A stretch of 54,427 bases of DNA from Treponemataceae bacterium (GTDB taxonomy: Bacteria > Spirochaetota > Spirochaetia > Treponematales > Treponemataceae): positions 1 through 54,427 of the forward strand of contig JAILBN010000118.1 of assembly GCA_024680915.1 (NCBI GenBank), read 5' to 3'. The translations under genes were made by a program, and so were the position numbers. Under the pieces are notes generated by a model. The model had not been told where the DNA came from. It ran no database searches and saw only the letters and a program-made list of their open reading frames with translations. This document shows, in pieces, positions 16,270 to 54,346 of this stretch; position 1 is the first letter of the stretch; every line of letters begins with the position of its first letter.

Positions 16270-17454
16270 ATGAGAAAAACTTCAGGAATTGTAAAGGCAG
16301 TGCCGGTGGTTCTGCTTGCATTATTTCTGCTGATATCCTGCGGTCCGGAAGAGTATAACGGTTTCAACCTTACTAAAAATAAGGGCGTGATGTGCGTTGA
16401 GCTTCCGTTTCCTTCGGGCAGTGATGCTTTTGTAACTATTCCCCTTTCTTATTATCAGATCTCAGAGGTACATATAAAAAATCTGGCTGATTTATACAAC
16501 CGTTTCAATCTGGAGGCGGATGACACTATTGCGTTCTATAAGACGATCGCTGGTCAATTGGCGGATTTTGACTCAGAAATCATACTGGAGGATGACCGCC
16601 GAAGCTTTGAAAAATGGAAGTCTGCGATGTATGGGCAGAATCTGTCTGATGCAGCCCCCCTTGCTGAGAAAATATCCGGAAGTATAGAAAGCCTTGTTTC
16701 TGTCATAAGAGAATTGAGCGGTCAGGATCCTCTCTTGAACACAACCTTTACCGCTGAGGATTTTTTTAATGCCAGGGGCAAAACAGAAGAGATTAAGGCT
16801 GCCTCTGCTTTTATCTCTCATTTATATCCGGGAGTCAAAATAATATCGGAATTCTCAGAGCGGACACCCTTCGTGCTTGATGAGACCCTGTACATAGATT
16901 TTCCTTTGGTTGCGTCTGTAAACGAGGAGGGGGAGTCTTTGCTCCTTCTTCCTGAAAGCGGAAAGTTCCCGTCGATTAAAATGCCCCGGCTTTTTTATGA
17001 AAAAATCCACTCTATTGCAAAAAAAATGGCAATTTACTATAATTCCTTTTCGGAAACTGATCGACAGGTTGTAACTGAGCTTTTTGAGGGCTCTTCCGAA
17101 TTGCATTTACTAGAATATAACCTTTTAGATTTTTTCCCCATGGACAAAGACAGGGTCATTCTTCTTGATTGGTTACGTTACGTCATGTCTCTTCCTCGGA
17201 ATGAGGCATTGTCGCTTACAGGCGGACTCAAGGCCTTTTGCAGGGCACAATGGCTTTATTCCTATAAGATTATCTCAGTTCTGGATGATATAAACTGGAA
17301 TTGCTCTTATTATGGAGATAAAGATGTGGCTGTTCGAAAGACATGGACTGACTATGTGTATAAAAAACAAGATTTTCTGGATGCTCTGGTATTTTTTGAG
17401 GAGAGTTTTCCTGATATAGCGTTTGTAAGAAGTCTTGATGAAAAAATACAGTAA
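16270..17454 (+). CDS. Hypothetical lipoprotein, alpha-helical
   Basis: A 394-residue predicted lipoprotein of no family I recognise. The signal peptide ends in LFLLISCGPEEY, cysteine near residue 24. The mature part is mixed, mostly helical, with many aromatic and acidic residues and no clear repeats. There is no Shine-Dalgarno site; a TATATT lies 6 nt before the ATG with a poor -35 (TTTCAC) 16 bp further up, so it may have its own leaderless transcript or be cotranscribed with the methylase gene 12 bp upstream. A 10-bp perfect inverted repeat covers its stop codon. Confidence 0.65.
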   Translation: MRKTSGIVKAVPVVLLALFLLISCGPEEYNGFNLTKNKGVMCVELPFPSGSDAFVTIPLSYYQISEVHIKNLADLYNRFNLEADDTIAFYKTIAGQLADFDSEIILEDDRRSFEKWKSAMYGQNLSDAAPLAEKISGSIESLVSVIRELSGQDPLLNTTFTAEDFFNARGKTEEIKAASAFISHLYPGVKIISEFSERTPFVLDETLYIDFPLVASVNEEGESLLLLPESGKFPSIKMPRLFYEKIHSIAKKMAIYYNSFSETDRQVVTELFEGSSELHLLEYNLLDFFPMDKDRVILLDWLRYVMSLPRNEALSLTGGLKAFCRAQWLYSYKIISVLDDINWNCSYYGDKDVAVRKTWTDYVYKKQDFLDALVFFEESFPDIAFVRSLDEKIQ

Positions 17455-17479
17455 TTCTTGGATATGGTACAAGAATTAC
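17451..17479. repeat. 10-bp perfect inverted repeat at a lipoprotein stop codon
   Basis: GTAATTCTTG (17451-17460, containing the TAA stop) and CAAGAATTAC (17470-17479) flank a 9-nt spacer. No T run follows, so it may be an operator of the next gene or an mRNA-stabilising hairpin. Confidence 0.75.
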
Positions 17480-17510
17480 AAAGATGCTTTTCATTATGGA
17501 GGTTTTTTAG

Positions 17511-17876
17511 ATGAAAGCTAAGATTTGGGCTATTGTATGTGTTCTTTTGGTGCTTTGCATGGGAAGTGTTTTCGCTCAGGATTCTATTGATTTTTCAGAT
17601 TTGACAATCGATGAATTCCTCGAGGCCTATGAGGATTTCGTTATTGATGTGGAAATTGCCGCAGAAGAAGGTGATGGATCAGCTTATTATGAGTTCCTTG
17701 AGGATTATACGGAATTCGTTGAATTCTGTGATCAGATAGATGCTTCTAACTGGACTGTTGAACAGCTTCAGTTCTTCAACGATCTTACATTGCGTTATAC
17801 AGCTGCCGCTACAGAGCTTGCTAACTACGTAAGCTATGATGACATACTGTCTGCATACGGAACTTATGGATTCTAA
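17511..17876 (+). CDS. Small exported helical acidic protein, paralogue of 10070-10453
   Basis: A 121-residue protein with signal peptide (MKAKIWAIVCVLLVLCMGSV, then FA, cleavage before QD). The mature acidic, helical part contains DEFLEAYEDFVIDVE, YEFLEDYTEFVEF, NWT, LTLRYTAAATELA and the end YGF, matching its paralogue on the other strand position by position. Two internal EFL..Y..F motifs suggest an old duplication of a helical hairpin. A strong ATGGAGG site lies 7-8 nt upstream of the ATG. It stands between a lipoprotein gene and leuS and could be transcribed into the leuS leader. Function unknown; likely periplasmic or secreted. Confidence 0.75.
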   Translation: MKAKIWAIVCVLLVLCMGSVFAQDSIDFSDLTIDEFLEAYEDFVIDVEIAAEEGDGSAYYEFLEDYTEFVEFCDQIDASNWTVEQLQFFNDLTLRYTAAATELANYVSYDDILSAYGTYGF

Positions 17877-18052
17877 ATCATTTAGTCAAGGCATATCTGC
17901 ATTTATGCATTGAGCCTTGGCTTAGACTATATAAGCCGTACTTATATACGGATTATACTGGGCGTCCAGATGCGGTCTAGCTTCCAGTTTCTCCTGGAGG
18001 ATAGGGGTACAAGTCATCAGGGGGCCCTGTTTTATTTTTAAAGGCGGAGAAA
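17877..18052 (+). promoter_or_regulatory. Structured leader between the small protein gene and leuS
   Basis: The 176-nt gap can fold into several hairpins: AGTCAAGGC 17884-17892 with GCCTTGGCT 17914-17922 (9 bp, one wobble) enclosing TGCA/TGCA, then a short CAGGG/CCCTG element (18018-18029) followed by TTTTATTTTT (18030-18039). A 23-codon frame (ATG 17970 to TAA 18041) with two adjacent leucine codons ends on that T-rich run, 12 nt before leuS. An attenuator is possible; no T-box motif is present. The hairpin could equally terminate the upstream gene. Confidence 0.35.
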
Positions 18053-20578
18053 ATGGCAAAATACCCTTTTGATACAATCGAGCCTAAATGGCAGGCTTAC
18101 TGGGAAAAAAACAAGACATTCAAAGTAAGGGAGGATAAGTCCTTTCCTAAGGAAAAGCGTCGCTATGTCCTTGATATGTTCCCTTATCCATCAGGAGCAG
18201 GTCTCCATGTAGGCCATCCAGAGGGATATACGGCAACGGATATCTACTGCCGTTATCTCAGAATGAACGGTTATAATGTTCTTCATCCCATGGGATACGA
18301 TGCTTTCGGTCTTCCGGCGGAGAATTACGCCATAAAGACAGGAACACATCCTTCTGTCACTACTAATGCGAATATAGAGAACTTTACCCGGCAGATTAAA
18401 TCCCTGGGCTTTTCCTATGATTGGGACCGCTGTGTCTCAACCTGTGAGAGCGACTATTATAAATGGACTCAGTGGATTTTCCTTCAGTTGTATAAAAAGG
18501 GTCTGGCTTACGAGGCTGAGACTCCCATCAACTGGTGCCCCAGCTGCCTTACGGGGCTTGCCAACGAAGAGGTCAAGGACGGTAAGTGTGACCGATGCGG
18601 TGCTACCGTAACCCATAAGACTATCCGCCAGTGGATTCTTAAAATAACCGATTACGCCGACAAGCTCCTGGAGGATCTTGATTCCCTGGACTGGCCTGAG
18701 AGCGTGAAGCTCATGCAGAAAAACTGGATAGGACGCAGTGAGGGAGCTGAGGTTACCTTTACTATCGCTGACAAGGATGGAAAAGCTACCGCCGATTCTC
18801 TTACAGTTTATACCACCCGTTGTGATACTCTGTTCGGAGCCACCTATATGGTTGTCGCTCCTGAGCACAAGCTTGTCTCAAAGCTTACTACCCCGGAGCA
18901 GAAGGCTGCTGTGGAAGCCTATATAGACCAAGCCGCGAAGAAGAGTGATCTTGAGCGTACCGACCTTGCCAAAGACAAGACAGGTGTTTTCTCCGGAAGT
19001 TATGCCATAAACCCTGTGAACGGAACCCTTATTCCTATTTGGATAGCCGACTACGTACTTATTTCCTATGGAACAGGTGCTATCATGGCTGTTCCTGCCC
19101 ACGACGACCGTGACTGGGAGTTCGCCAAGAAGTTCAATCTTCCTATAATCGAGGTTCTTAAGAGCCAGGTGGATGTTCAGGAGCAAGCTTGGACTGAGGA
19201 TGGAATCCATGTGAACTCAGGCTTCCTGGACGGCCTCAACAAGGCTGATGCCATAGCAGCCATGCTTAAATGGCTTGCAGAGAAGGGCTGTGGCAAAAAG
19301 GCCGTAAACTATAAGCTCCGCGACTGGATTTACAGCCGCCAGCGCTATTGGGGTGAGCCTATTCCTCTGGTCCACTGCGAAAAGTGCGGCTGTGTTCCTG
19401 TTCCTGAGGAAGAGCTTCCTGTAAAGCTTCCAGAGGTAAAGAGCTACCAGCCCACAGGAACTGGTGAGAGCCCTCTGGCTGCCATCACAGACTGGGTAAA
19501 CTGCAAGTGCCCCAAGTGTGGTGGCCCCGCCAAGCGTGAGACGAACACAATGCCTCAGTGGGGTGGTTCCTGCTGGTATTATCTTCGCTACCTTGATCCT
19601 GTGAACGACAAGGCTTTCGCATCAAAAGAGGCTATTGACTACTGGATGCCTGTTGACCTTTATGTTGGCGGGGCCGAGCATGCCGTCCTCCACCTGCTTT
19701 ACGCCCGTTTCTGGCACAAGGTTCTGTATGACTTAGGCTATGTCAATACTAAAGAGCCCTTCCAGCGCCTTATCAACCAGGGGCTTATCACTTCTTTCGC
19801 CTATCAGCGCAAGAACAAGACCCTTGTTCCTATAGACGAGGTTGAGGAGCGTGACGGAGCCTTCTATGAGAAAGCCACTGGCGAGAAGCTGGAGAGCGTT
19901 ATAGCCAAGATGTCAAAGTCTCTTAAGAATGTCATCAATCCTGATGACGTCATAAAGGAGTACGGGGCAGACAGTGTCCGTATGTATGAGATGTTCATGG
20001 GACCTCTTGAGGTTTCAAAGCCATGGAACACGAAAGGACTCATCGGTGTGAGCCGTTTCCTGGAGAAGGTCTGGGCCGTAAGTGAGAAGCCTCTTTGTGA
20101 TGATGATATGTCCGCTGACATGCGTAAGCTTCTTCACAAGACTATAAAGAAAGTCACGGAGGACACTTCTACCCTTAACTTTAATACGGCCATAAGCCAG
20201 ATGATGATTTTCATAAACGAAGTCTCGAAGCTGGATAAGATGCCCAAGGCCTTGTGGACGGATTTCGTCAAGCTTCTTTCTCCTTATGCCCCTCACCTGG
20301 GCGAGGAATTGTGGTCTAAGCTTGGTAATTCCAATACGATCGCCTACGAAGCCTGGCCTGTCTACAAGGAGGAATTCTGCAAGGACAGCTCTGTCACTGT
20401 AGTCGTTCAGGTGAACGGCAAAATTCGTGACAAGCTGGAGGTGGAGCCTAATACTGATAAGGCTGAGCTTGAGAAGGCCGCTCTTGCTTCAGAAGGTGCC
20501 AAGAAGTTTATGGAAGGAAAGACAGCTGTCAAGGTTGTTGTCGTTCCGAATAAGCTTGTTAATATAGTCGTGAAATAA
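18053..20578 (+). CDS. leuS: Leucyl-tRNA synthetase
   Basis: An 841-residue class I aminoacyl-tRNA synthetase that charges tRNA-Leu. The N-terminal part has [16 protein letters not shown] (HIGH-type motif at HVGH) and the zinc-type cysteines NWCPSC..CDRCG. The editing (CP1) domain spans about 225-420 and includes [14 protein letters not shown]. The core resumes with [15 protein letters not shown], and the KMSKS loop is KMSKSLKNV near residue 623. The C terminus ends with the small QVNGKIRDK domain. The length is normal for bacterial LeuRS. The ATG is preceded by AAGGCGGAG. It is a single gene ended by the terminator at 20622-20651. Confidence 0.98.
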
Positions 20579-51054: not shown

Positions 51055-52200
51055 ATGCGTTGTGGTTTTGCAGTAGACATAGGTACCACCAATATTGAGA
51101 TAGCCCTATGGAATCTTGATGCGGAAGAAATGCTCTGCAAAAGGACCTTCCGTAATTGTCTTTATGTACGCGGGGCCGATGTCCTTTCCCGCATTCTCTA
51201 TGCTCATTACCGTTCTGTTGAGGAGCTTCAAGAAAAGCTGGCATTGCAACTGAGGGATTCCTTTAAAAGCATGATTGAATCTGCTGGACTGGAGTCTTCT
51301 GTCCCGGCTGTGGAGACTGCAGTTCTGACCGGTAATACGGTCATGCTGCATTTTATATGCGGTCTTCCGGTGACTGGCTTCGAGAAGGCTCCCTTTAGAC
51401 CGGCATCCTTATTCAGGGAGGAGGGACCGGCCTGGCCTCTTCCGTCTCTCAATGCTGGTGAGATTATAATTCCACCCTGCATAGGGGCTTTTTTAGGCGG
51501 AGATATAGTATGTGCCGGGCTTTGGGCTGAGAAGCTTTCTCTTTCAGAAAAGACCTGCGAAAACAGCAAGCCGGAGACCCTGTTCTCAGGAAAGCTTTCT
51601 TCCCTTGGAGCCCCCTATTTAGTGATAGATATAGGAACTAACACAGAAATCATGCTGGTTAAAAGCGATGGCAGCAGGGCTGCATGCTCCGCGGCCGCCG
51701 GACCCGCCTTTGAGGGCGGCGGACTAAGCGTAGGAATGAAGGGGGCTGCCCTGGTCTCTGCATTGGCGGCACTGCTGGATGAAGGAATCATGGACGAGAC
51801 CGGCTATATCGAAAAATCAGAAGCCAGCTGCCTTAGCCAGCAGGATATACGACAGCTGCAGCTTGCAAAGGGGGCGACCGCAGCCGCCGTGGAAGCCTTG
51901 CTGGAAAGCGAAGCTATAGCAGCAAAGGATATAAAGAAAAGCTTTATATGCGGTAATTTTGGCAATGCCCTGGATATAGAAGCTGTGAAAAAAACAGGAC
52001 TGCTTCCGGCTGCGGTTGCTGATAAAGCATTTTATGCCGGCAATGCCGCCCTGGCAGGTGCGGAGCTTCTTCTGCTTTCCAAAACCGCCGCCCTTGGGGA
52101 AAGCAGAAGAATAGCATCCTCCACTTCAATCCTGCAGCTTGCCGACAGTGCTTTTTTCGCTGAGAAATACATAGAAAGGATGAATTTTATCCCATTTTAA
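51055..52200 (+). CDS. ASKHA-domain protein like the RACo C-terminal region, no ferredoxin domain
   Basis: A 381-residue protein of the ASKHA (actin/Hsp70/sugar kinase) fold that matches the C-terminal part of RACo-type activators of corrinoid proteins. Phosphate loops are VDIGTTNIE (start) and VIDIGTNTEIML. Family marks are GNTVMLHFICGLPV, GPAFEGGGLSVGMKGA and CGNFGNALDIEAVKKTGLLP. Typical RACo proteins carry an N-terminal [2Fe-2S] domain and a linker; here the ASKHA domain starts at residue 1, so the electron-transfer part is missing or supplied by another protein. It should bind and hydrolyse ATP. The gene is 9 bp after the PfkB kinase gene and is ended by the terminator at 52222. Confidence 0.8.
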   Translation: MRCGFAVDIGTTNIEIALWNLDAEEMLCKRTFRNCLYVRGADVLSRILYAHYRSVEELQEKLALQLRDSFKSMIESAGLESSVPAVETAVLTGNTVMLHFICGLPVTGFEKAPFRPASLFREEGPAWPLPSLNAGEIIIPPCIGAFLGGDIVCAGLWAEKLSLSEKTCENSKPETLFSGKLSSLGAPYLVIDIGTNTEIMLVKSDGSRAACSAAAGPAFEGGGLSVGMKGAALVSALAALLDEGIMDETGYIEKSEASCLSQQDIRQLQLAKGATAAAVEALLESEAIAAKDIKKSFICGNFGNALDIEAVKKTGLLPAAVADKAFYAGNAALAGAELLLLSKTAALGESRRIASSTSILQLADSAFFAEKYIERMNFIPF

Positions 52201-52221
52201 GCAGGTCAATATCAGGTAGTG

Positions 52222-52243
52222 AGTCCCAAGGGACTTTTTTTTT
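52222..52243 (+). terminator. Terminator of the PfkB-ASKHA operon
   Basis: AGTCCC (52222-52227) and GGGACT (52230-52235) give a 5-bp usable stem with a CAAG loop, followed by nine T residues (52235-52243). Confidence 0.75.
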
Positions 52244-52260: not shown

Positions 52261-52301
52261 TGTGTCAAAATGCCTCGAAAAATCAGTAGCAAAATGACAC
52301 A
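52261..52301. promoter_or_regulatory. Candidate upstream activator site of the hsp20 promoter
   Basis: TGTGTCA (52261-52267) and TGACACA (52295-52301) are perfect inverted repeats 27 bp apart, about 180-215 bp upstream of the predicted sigma-54 start. A 12-bp palindrome CTTTCTAGAAAG lies at 52352-52363, about 115-125 bp upstream. Either could bind a sigma-54 activator. The rest of 52201-52450 is AT-rich, with a repeated AATAATATTTG at about 52364 and 52415. Confidence 0.35.
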
Positions 52302-52450
52302 GAGGGAACTTAGGGACAAAAAGTCCTCCTTTCTTTTTTTTGATTTTTTCCCTTTCTAGAAAGAATAATATTTGTAAAATATTTTTAACACCTTGTATTA
52401 TAAATAAATAGAAAAATAATATTTGAAAATCTCTCCCTGTTTTTAAATTT

Positions 52451-52467
52451 TGGCACGCTATTTGCAA
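52451..52467 (+). promoter_or_regulatory. Sigma-54 promoter of the hsp20 gene
   Basis: TGGCACG then CTAT then TTGCAA matches the -24/-12 consensus exactly, with GG (52452-52453) and GC (52464-52465) spaced as required. Transcription should begin near 52477, giving a 67-nt leader. No sigma-70-type promoter is evident in the same place. Confidence 0.85.
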
Positions 52468-52518
52468 TATTGTTAGTGTAAATGAAAGTGATGTGAGCTG
52501 GTGTTACCGGTGATCACT

Positions 52519-52544
52519 TAGAAAAATAAATTGGAGGTTTTCTA
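52519..52544 (+). promoter_or_regulatory. AU-rich hairpin holding the hsp20 ribosome-binding site in its loop
   Basis: TAGAAAA (52519-52525) pairs perfectly with TTTTCTA (52538-52544), whose last base is the A of the ATG. The 12-nt loop holds GGAGG (52533-52537). A second stem, AAGTGAT 52486-52492 with ATCACTT 52513-52519, lies directly upstream. Such weak stems could melt on heating. Confidence 0.55.
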
Positions 52545-52996
52545 TGAACACATTATCATTTTTTAATCCGAGGTTTACATCCGATCTTTTTGATGTTATC
52601 GACCGTAATTTTTCAGACTACGGATACGGTGAGTGCACAAAGACTACAGCTCCTCGCGTCGATGTAGCGGAACGGAAGGATTCTTACGTCCTTGACATGG
52701 AACTTCCTGGATTCACAGAGAACGACGTTGAGATCGACCTTAAGGACAGGGTTCTGACGATAGCATCTAAACTGAAGGATGCAAAGAAGGCTGAGAAAGA
52801 GGAGAAGAAAGAGAATGCTGATTCTGTTTACCTGATAAAGGAAAGACGGAATTCAACCTTCTCAAGAAGCTTCACTATGCCTGAGGATATCGATCCGGAG
52901 AAAGTTTCTGCTGCCTTCAAGAACGGACTTCTTACAATCGTTATTCCTCGTAAGGCCGAGGCTCAGAGTAAACGTATCATGATATCTGTGGCATAA
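52544..52996 (+). CDS. Small heat-shock protein, Hsp20 family
   Basis: A 150-residue ATP-independent chaperone that keeps unfolding proteins soluble. The alpha-crystallin domain (about 40-148) has the family marks VDVAERKDSYVLDMELPGF, VEIDLKDRVLTI, and the terminal FKNGLLTIVIPRK. A lysine/glutamate-rich insertion (KKAEKEEKKENAD) sits in the middle loop. It ends IMISVA with a short tail carrying an I-x-I-like MIS. The start follows GGAGG by 6 nt. It is a monocistronic gene with a sigma-54 promoter and a strong terminator downstream. Confidence 0.95.
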   Translation: MNTLSFFNPRFTSDLFDVIDRNFSDYGYGECTKTTAPRVDVAERKDSYVLDMELPGFTENDVEIDLKDRVLTIASKLKDAKKAEKEEKKENADSVYLIKERRNSTFSRSFTMPEDIDPEKVSAAFKNGLLTIVIPRKAEAQSKRIMISVA

Positions 52997-53046
52997 GCCT
53001 GATGTCACTGGTATAATCCTGAACAAAGATATCGTAAAGCTGAAAA

Positions 53047-53081
53047 GTCTGCTGGCTCCTTGAGCCGGCAGGCTTTTTTTT
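53047..53081 (+). terminator. Terminator of hsp20, possibly bidirectional
   Basis: GTCTGCTGGCTC (53047-53058) pairs with GAGCCGGCAGGC (53062-53073) through two wobbles, loop CTT, then eight T residues. On the minus strand four T residues follow, so it may also end the AraC gene transcript. Confidence 0.9.
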
Positions 53082-53122: not shown

Positions 53123-54346
53123 TTAAATTTTGCTGTGCTTGCGGAATTCGCTGGGTGTCATGCCTTTTATACCCTTGAATACACGGGTAAAATAATTCAT
53201 GTCACTGAATCCCACGAAAGATGCTATGTCTTCTATACTTGCGTTGCTGGTTTCAAGAAGCTCGTAAGCTTTCTCGATTCTCTTTCTGTTTATATATGTA
53301 GAGATTGAGAATTTCGTCTCATGGTTGAATACTGCGGAAAGATAGTTAGGACTGACATTTATAGCTGCCGCAATCTCAGGAAGGTGAATGTCCGTGTTAA
53401 GGTGCGTGTTTATATAATTCAGAGCTTGCCTTACCATAGGCGTATACTTTATCAATGAATGCTGGGATACAAGCTTGCAATACTCCACGATGCAGTCTTC
53501 TTGAAGCTTCCTGAGCTCTTCTATGCTGTTTTTGCTTTCTATCATGGACATGATCTGGTTTGAAAGACTGTCTATATAAAGTGGGTGTACGTAGGCTTTC
53601 TCCACTGCCTTCCTGAGGATAGTGTTATGCACTATACAACTGTTTTTCGCATTCCTTAAGGATGTTATGAATCTTTTGTTGTTCTCCAGCTCTACACGAA
53701 GGATACACCAGGTTTGAAGCGCTCCTATGCTGTTTCCCTGTGTCACGTCGGCCTGCATTCTTGTCTCAAGCGAGTAGCGTCTTTCTGTCTGGGCCATATA
53801 GATATGCTCTTCTTCCTCAAAGAATTCAGCAGATTCTACCTTTTTCTCTGTTCCGAAGGGAAATACTGACCTGCATTCAGGTTCTCCTGTTATGCCATAA
53901 TAGTTGTTTATACAGCTTCTTGCGACTGTGAGCACCTTTGTGAAGGAGCATACAGGTATCGAGTGATAATACATTTTAAGAGGAGAAGCGTATGCAGCCT
54001 GAAGGTTGTTGCGTAAAAGGGATTTTTGCGTCAGGTTCTCAGGCATGGGGGATGTAAAATAAGGTCCTATTACCAGAAAAGCCGGATTTTTATGCTCTTC
54101 CATATCTGGCAGCCTTATTACTGCCCACTTAAGAAAGTAATGGTCTTCTATATCATACACAATTTTTTCTGATAATTTTAAAAGATATGTAAGTATGGCA
54201 TCCCCGTTATAGGAGGTTCCTGCCATAGGAGGCGTCAGTCGCGAGAAAAAGTCTCCTGCGGATTCCTTAGAGTTTTCAATGACAGAAACATTTACCGAAA
54301 GCAAAGTTTCAATAATTTCTTTTGTAAAAGGTATTATAGACTTCAT
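53123..54346 (-). CDS. AraC-family transcriptional regulator
   Basis: A 407-residue regulator with a C-terminal AraC/XylS DNA-binding domain (about 305-405): two helix-turn-helix parts, LPEIAAAINVSPNYLSAVF and IEDIASFVGFSDMNYFTRVFK, ending GMTPSEFRKHS. The N-terminal 300 residues have no clear cupin fold; they look mixed alpha/beta with many charged residues, like the uncharacterised sensor regions of treponemal AraC proteins. It is convergent with hsp20. Its target genes probably lie beyond the window's right edge. Only 81 bp of upstream sequence is visible (54347-54427), in which I see no clear promoter; an AGAGAG site lies about 10 nt before the ATG. Confidence 0.9.
   Translation of the reverse strand: MKSIIPFTKEIIETLLSVNVSVIENSKESAGDFFSRLTPPMAGTSYNGDAILTYLLKLSEKIVYDIEDHYFLKWAVIRLPDMEEHKNPAFLVIGPYFTSPMPENLTQKSLLRNNLQAAYASPLKMYYHSIPVCSFTKVLTVARSCINNYYGITGEPECRSVFPFGTEKKVESAEFFEEEEHIYMAQTERRYSLETRMQADVTQGNSIGALQTWCILRVELENNKRFITSLRNAKNSCIVHNTILRKAVEKAYVHPLYIDSLSNQIMSMIESKNSIEELRKLQEDCIVEYCKLVSQHSLIKYTPMVRQALNYINTHLNTDIHLPEIAAAINVSPNYLSAVFNHETKFSISTYINRKRIEKAYELLETSNASIEDIASFVGFSDMNYFTRVFKGIKGMTPSEFRKHSKI

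Follow-up and report, generated by a model that had tools for sequence, protein, structure and literature searches.

A conserved sigma-54 promoter with paired enhancer-type repeats upstream of a small heat-shock gene in Treponemataceae

The small heat-shock gene hsp20 of this Treponemataceae bacterium lies behind a sigma-54 promoter that is kept across its family and order, and it seems to be under a specific signalling pathway, not ordinary heat-shock control. In the 54,427-nucleotide stretch of DNA that was analysed (the window), the promoter and a pair of upstream inverted repeats can be read directly from the sequence, as can rpoN, the activator genes elsewhere in the genome, and the conservation and sharing of these elements. 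We consider it probable that hsp20 is transcribed by sigma-54 RNA polymerase through a kinase-driven NtrC-type response regulator acting on the repeats, and that this control is shared with a sigma-factor gene linked to groES.

The hsp20 gene (52544–52996, forward strand) encodes a 150-aa protein of the Hsp20/alpha-crystallin family, which exceeds the curated PF00011 cut-off (82.9 bits vs. 20.8; E = 1.9e-23); its closest named relative, 87% identical, comes from a Treponemataceae MAG. The genome itself (3.15 Mb in 134 contigs) is 95.7% complete. Upstream, across a 343-bp intergenic region, lies a RACo-like gene (51055–52200, assigned by gene-family search), and because a terminator-like hairpin (52221–52236, forward strand) ends that gene, hsp20 would form its own transcription unit. 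On the same strand, hsp20 has a GGAGG ribosome-binding site (52533–52537) and an intrinsic terminator of 17 pairs with a T tail (53042–53078), beyond which an AraC-type gene converges from the minus strand (53123–54346). Another terminator-like hairpin, with a weaker T tract, is present at 52313–52327, between the repeats and the promoter.

According to an earlier note on this DNA, a −24/−12 element precedes the hsp20 ATG (52544) by 77 bp, and this is confirmed. The element (TGGCACGCTATTTGCA, 52451–52466, forward strand) reads TGGCACG-CTAT-TTGCA, a perfect match with the invariant GG at 52452–3, the GC at 52464–5 and the correct spacing, and it is the one exact match to TGGCACGN4TTGC in the window. 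With two mismatches allowed, the window holds nine matches against 9.75 expected; as this is chance level, it is the perfection of the element and its context that count, not likeness alone. The same chance-level matches could be taken to mean that the hsp20 element is a fortuitous resemblance with no promoter function, but we give that reading practically no weight, since conservation already refutes it. The window's family (f1) was sampled over 20 genera, with hsp20 in 141 of 145 genomes and 75 hsp20 loci. An exact TGGCAYN6TGCW lies within 430 bp upstream of the hsp20 domain, on the coding strand, at 68 of the 75, whereas it occurs on the opposite strand at none and inside the domain at none (0/75 each). 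Such consistent placement goes far past anything chance would give. Near-matches are present at most of the other seven loci, and all six genomes of the genus that have hsp20 carry the element. In four other families of the order (f2–f5), a score of 22 or more out of 26.2 is reached by 38 of the 40 hsp20 loci examined; three further loci, truncated at contig ends, are not in this count. The element is imperfect at a few family loci, and one paralogue (L101) has none. Its flanks are conserved as well, with AAGT ahead of it and AGTGTAA some 12 nt beyond the GC (66 loci), and this, together with the pairing of the enhancer-type sites described below, also speaks against chance. The transcript is predicted to start at the A-G-T of AGTGTAA (52475–52477, forward strand), 12 nt after the GC element, a position conserved over the 66 loci.

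Most hsp20 transcription might instead begin at a sigma-70-type promoter within the 343 bp between the two genes, with sigma-54 transcription minor or conditional, and two weak sigma-70-like matches (9/12) at 52340–52369 and 52372–52401 could serve. We think this quite improbable: such matches are about as numerous as expected in shuffles, and no conservation of either was observed, in contrast to the sigma-54 element, the start region and a hairpin at the 5' end of the transcript, which are all conserved. The hsp20 message is best described as a putative monocistronic transcript, made by sigma-54 RNA polymerase from the 52451–52466 element.

The hairpin (52486–52519, forward strand) was found by folding the first 50 nt of the predicted transcript (52476–52525), which gave z = −2.6 in the window and a mean of −1.68 over 66 family loci, compared with −0.45 in control stretches. 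The first pair lies no more than 7 nt from the start at 58 of 66 loci vs. 31 in controls, and a hairpin so placed fits transcription beginning from the sigma-54 promoter. The stem sequences differ among genera, the fold is weaker in other families (z = −0.95), and no such hairpin was seen at the groES-linked sigma genes (z = −0.07). Small heat-shock genes elsewhere are often under RNA thermometers (ROSE, fourU and similar structures), and the 5' UTR of hsp20 does have a conserved hairpin; a classical heat-shock device, whether of this kind or HrcA/CIRCE, is nevertheless a weak and very improbable explanation here. The conserved hairpin stops before GGAGG and leaves it free, an Rfam search of the leader returned no match, and CIRCE has no match in the window at up to three mismatches. 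Folding of the whole 94-nt leader gave nothing significant, the longer fold, which pairs near GGAGG, having z = −0.51. Since the ribosome-binding site is left free, we read the hairpin as a probable 5' stabilising stem-loop and not as a thermometer.

Upstream of the promoter lie two enhancer-type sites on the forward strand: TGTGTCA-AAA-TGCCTCG at 52261–52277, whose left half is perfect, and AGTAGCA-AAA-TGACACA at 52285–52301, whose right half is perfect. Each matches about 11 of the 14 positions of a 17-bp inverted repeat, TGTRTCA-N3-TGAYACA, that recurs in the family; the two are 24 bp apart, centre to centre, the commonest spacing in the family, and the outer palindrome they form (52261–52301) is unique in the genome. 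The motif emerged when 7-mers were counted without bias over the 320 bp that precede the element: TGTGTCA/TGACACA ranked first (46 of 68 loci vs. 2.1 in shuffles), and palindrome scores of at least 12 were reached at 45 of the 68 family loci vs. 0.17 in shuffles. The repeats usually lie 135–290 bp upstream of the element, with a spacing of 23–24 bp in 20 of 34 site pairs. Single 17-bp repeats with three mismatches are near background genome-wide (80 vs. 63 per strand), so only paired, positioned and conserved repeats count. In one close relative with a perfect promoter (L016), no clear repeats were found within 250 bp. The paired inverted repeats would supply the upstream activator-binding sites typical of a sigma-54 promoter, and because they accompany a promoter conserved across the order, the proposal in the earlier note that hsp20 answers to a dedicated activator is well supported.

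The machinery for such control is encoded in the genome. RpoN (451 aa) scores 339.8 bits for TIGR02395 against a cut-off of 277 and also exceeds the cut-offs of PF04552, PF04963 and PF00309, and three AAA+ sigma-54 activators match PF00158 strongly. The absence of rpoN had been the main ground named for abandoning sigma-54 control, and with rpoN and three activators present the proposal has therefore passed that test. One activator is an NtrC-type response regulator (449 aa, contig C111) with REC, AAA+ (GSFTGA) and Fis-type HTH domains; another is of GAF type (510 aa, contig C97) and has all activator domains. The third (397 aa, contig C84) has an AAA+ domain with GAFTGA, and no C-terminal HTH was detected in it; it could act without enhancer sites. 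Proteins of this third type are conserved at about 370–400 aa in the family. The response regulator gene directly follows one for a soluble histidine kinase, whose PAS match is weak, in a run that also holds a CvpA (colicin-V-production) type gene and a DNA polymerase III delta-type gene, and no membrane-spanning partner of the pair was found. The AtcR system of T. denticola was considered as the regulator and rejected, because AtcR is a LytTR regulator and not a sigma-54 activator. At the activator-gene loci that were examined, repeats of this kind are absent except for weak ones at the third activator, so autoregulation gives no clue to which activator is used.

Across the 3.15-Mb genome, TGGCAYN5TTGCW occurs at four sites. 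Three are intergenic and correctly placed before genes, namely hsp20 and two sigma-70-family genes; the fourth falls within a histidine kinase gene. The earlier note had proposed seeking the same element before other chaperone genes, and at consensus level none of them has it in the 95.7% complete genome. A relaxed search with two mismatches gave 133 matches genome-wide vs. 99 in a backward control, and since such matches are at chance level in the window and close to it across the genome, we do not claim a wider regulon. One of the two sigma genes encodes a group-2-type factor of 279 aa that is divergent and adjoins groES (contig C82); the other encodes a 274-aa sigma-70-family factor (C5:13965). 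The groES-linked gene has the same repeats upstream as hsp20, often 40 bp apart, and its orthologues across the order have the same repeat motif. Orthologues of the C5 gene have the sigma-54 element in 20 of 20 genomes across the order, and the TGTRTCA pair was looked for upstream in these 20 and not found. The repeats are therefore specific, not a general property of sigma-54 upstream regions. A different motif (GTATAC/CTGTATAC) is enriched upstream of the C5-type genes, which suggests that they are served by a separate activator, perhaps the GAF type.

Covariation between families bears on which activator recognises the repeats. Half-sites of f1 and f5 have a purine at position 4, where T is enriched in f3 and f4 (TGTRTCA becoming TGTTTCA); repeats with TGTTTCA in one half also occur in g20 genomes (L092, L097, L112). 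The difference between families gives Fisher p = 1e-11 overall and 5e-7 for f5 vs. f3 and f4, values that overstate the covariation because one or two evolutionary events may underlie it; f3 and f4 may be sister families. The shift is paralleled by a change in the NtrC-type regulator's recognition helix, which reads RKTLHRKL in every f1 regulator examined apart from that of genome G025, RKTLHRKL in two and RKTLLRKL in the third of three f5 regulators, and RKTLYQK in f3 and f4. Sigma-54 control might be real and yet be exerted by the GAF-type activator, which is found in nearly all genomes examined with all activator domains and belongs to a class that often senses small molecules. We judge this unlikely, as its helix, IQRTY[VL]SRL, is unchanged between f5 and f3/f4, whose half-sites differ, and the GTATAC-like motif upstream of the C5-type sigma gene would give it a separate target. 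The NtrC-type response regulator is thus the best candidate for the activator at the repeats, a choice that, with few independent changes behind it, we infer rather than prove.

The exception, G025, is a reduced treponeme genome (1.14 Mb, one contig) without hsp20. Its regulator helix is RKTLYLKL, and its sigma gene has kept the −24/−12 element upstream and lost the repeats. The delta-like, kinase and regulator frames lie in the same order as in the window's genome; the kinase beside the regulator is in two overlapping frames (L330; C1:545000-564999, minus strand, approximately 17100–18600), and may be broken with the regulator intact. The same genome has a strong sigma-54-like element, TGGCATGGTTTTTGCT (L263; G025:C1:1136989-1137004), approximately 37 bp ahead of a frame whose first residues look like those of a Dps/TpF1-type ferritin; this frame overlaps other predicted ORFs.

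From these observations, we infer the following circuit. A cytoplasmic, soluble PAS histidine kinase would phosphorylate the NtrC-type regulator encoded just after it, dimers of which would bind the two 17-bp repeats at 52261–52301, about 150–190 bp upstream of the promoter. The phosphorylated regulator would then assemble and open the sigma-54 promoter of hsp20, and the same activator and repeats would serve a second sigma-54 promoter, that of the groES-adjoining sigma-70-family factor. One signal, presumably cytoplasmic, could in this way induce the chaperone directly and a wider gene set through the new sigma factor. By extending to a sigma-70-family factor, the circuit has the look of a stress branch that goes beyond a chaperone switch.

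Parts of this arrangement have counterparts elsewhere. E. coli ibpB is under partial sigma-54 control, with sigma-32 as the main factor; it resembles hsp20 in being a small heat-shock gene with sigma-54 input, but in the treponeme no further heat-shock element turned up, and the sigma-54 element hardly varies throughout the order. A 2025 regulon survey lists COG0071 (IbpA) among predicted sigma-54 targets, finds the IbpA chaperone cluster enriched in Planctomycetota and Bacteroidota, and names a different protease for Spirochaetia; its text does not mention Treponema (PMC12316311). The Desulfovibrio NtrC-family activators use enhancers of the TGT-N11-ACA type, to which TGTRTCA-N3-TGAYACA conforms in having TGT and ACA 11 bp apart, although organism and targets differ, and motif likeness there does not always follow likeness of the DNA-binding domains (PMC4641369). 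The literature we found on sigma-54 in spirochaetes concerns mainly Borrelia and Leptospira. Leptospira, also a spirochaete, has one GAF-type and one REC-type activator, EbpA/EbpB, known to act with sigma-54 on amtB and lipoprotein genes, which are linked to nitrogen and to survival in water; no small heat-shock gene is named (PMC12655853). The nearest system worked out so far is that of Borrelia burgdorferi, in which the HK2-Rrp2-RpoN-RpoS pathway uses a kinase-adjacent NtrC-type regulator to activate a sigma-70-family gene through sigma-54 (PMC4014564, PMC11109971); rpoS is said to be the sole sigma-54 promoter identified so far, with Rrp2 the sole activator (PMC11109971), and passages of that paper, with the title of its reference 25, describe Rrp2 activation as enhancer-independent. 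The treponeme genome likewise has a REC-AAA+-HTH regulator, sigma-54, and a sigma-70-family gene with a sigma-54 promoter, but differs in having putative enhancer sites in pairs and three genes for activators, and in that hsp20 is an apparent direct target. Since repeats precede both hsp20 and the groES-linked sigma gene, in place of the enhancer-less promoter of the Rrp2-RpoN-RpoS cascade, the treponeme circuit is not filed as a member of that cascade. No report linking hsp20 to sigma-54 in treponemes was found in the open-access literature, the scope of our search; the promoter is of a known kind, and the circuit is apparently undescribed in treponemes.

The role of sigma-54 in treponemes is little known, and these results provide a core regulon small enough to test, hsp20 plus two sigma factors, along with an exactly defined operator and a specific protein as candidate activator. 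On this evidence, one specific cytoplasmic signal, and not a heat-shock repressor or a heat-shock sigma factor, seems to govern both a chaperone and a sigma factor. More tentatively, and with somewhat less than even confidence, we propose that ancestral spirochaetes had a stress circuit in which a single cytoplasmic two-component system worked through sigma-54 enhancers to drive a small heat-shock chaperone as well as a secondary sigma factor. The Borrelia cascade and the G025 promoter, both enhancer-less, would be stripped-down remnants of that circuit. The enhancer-independent sigma-54 cascade of the Lyme spirochaetes might then have arisen from such a circuit.
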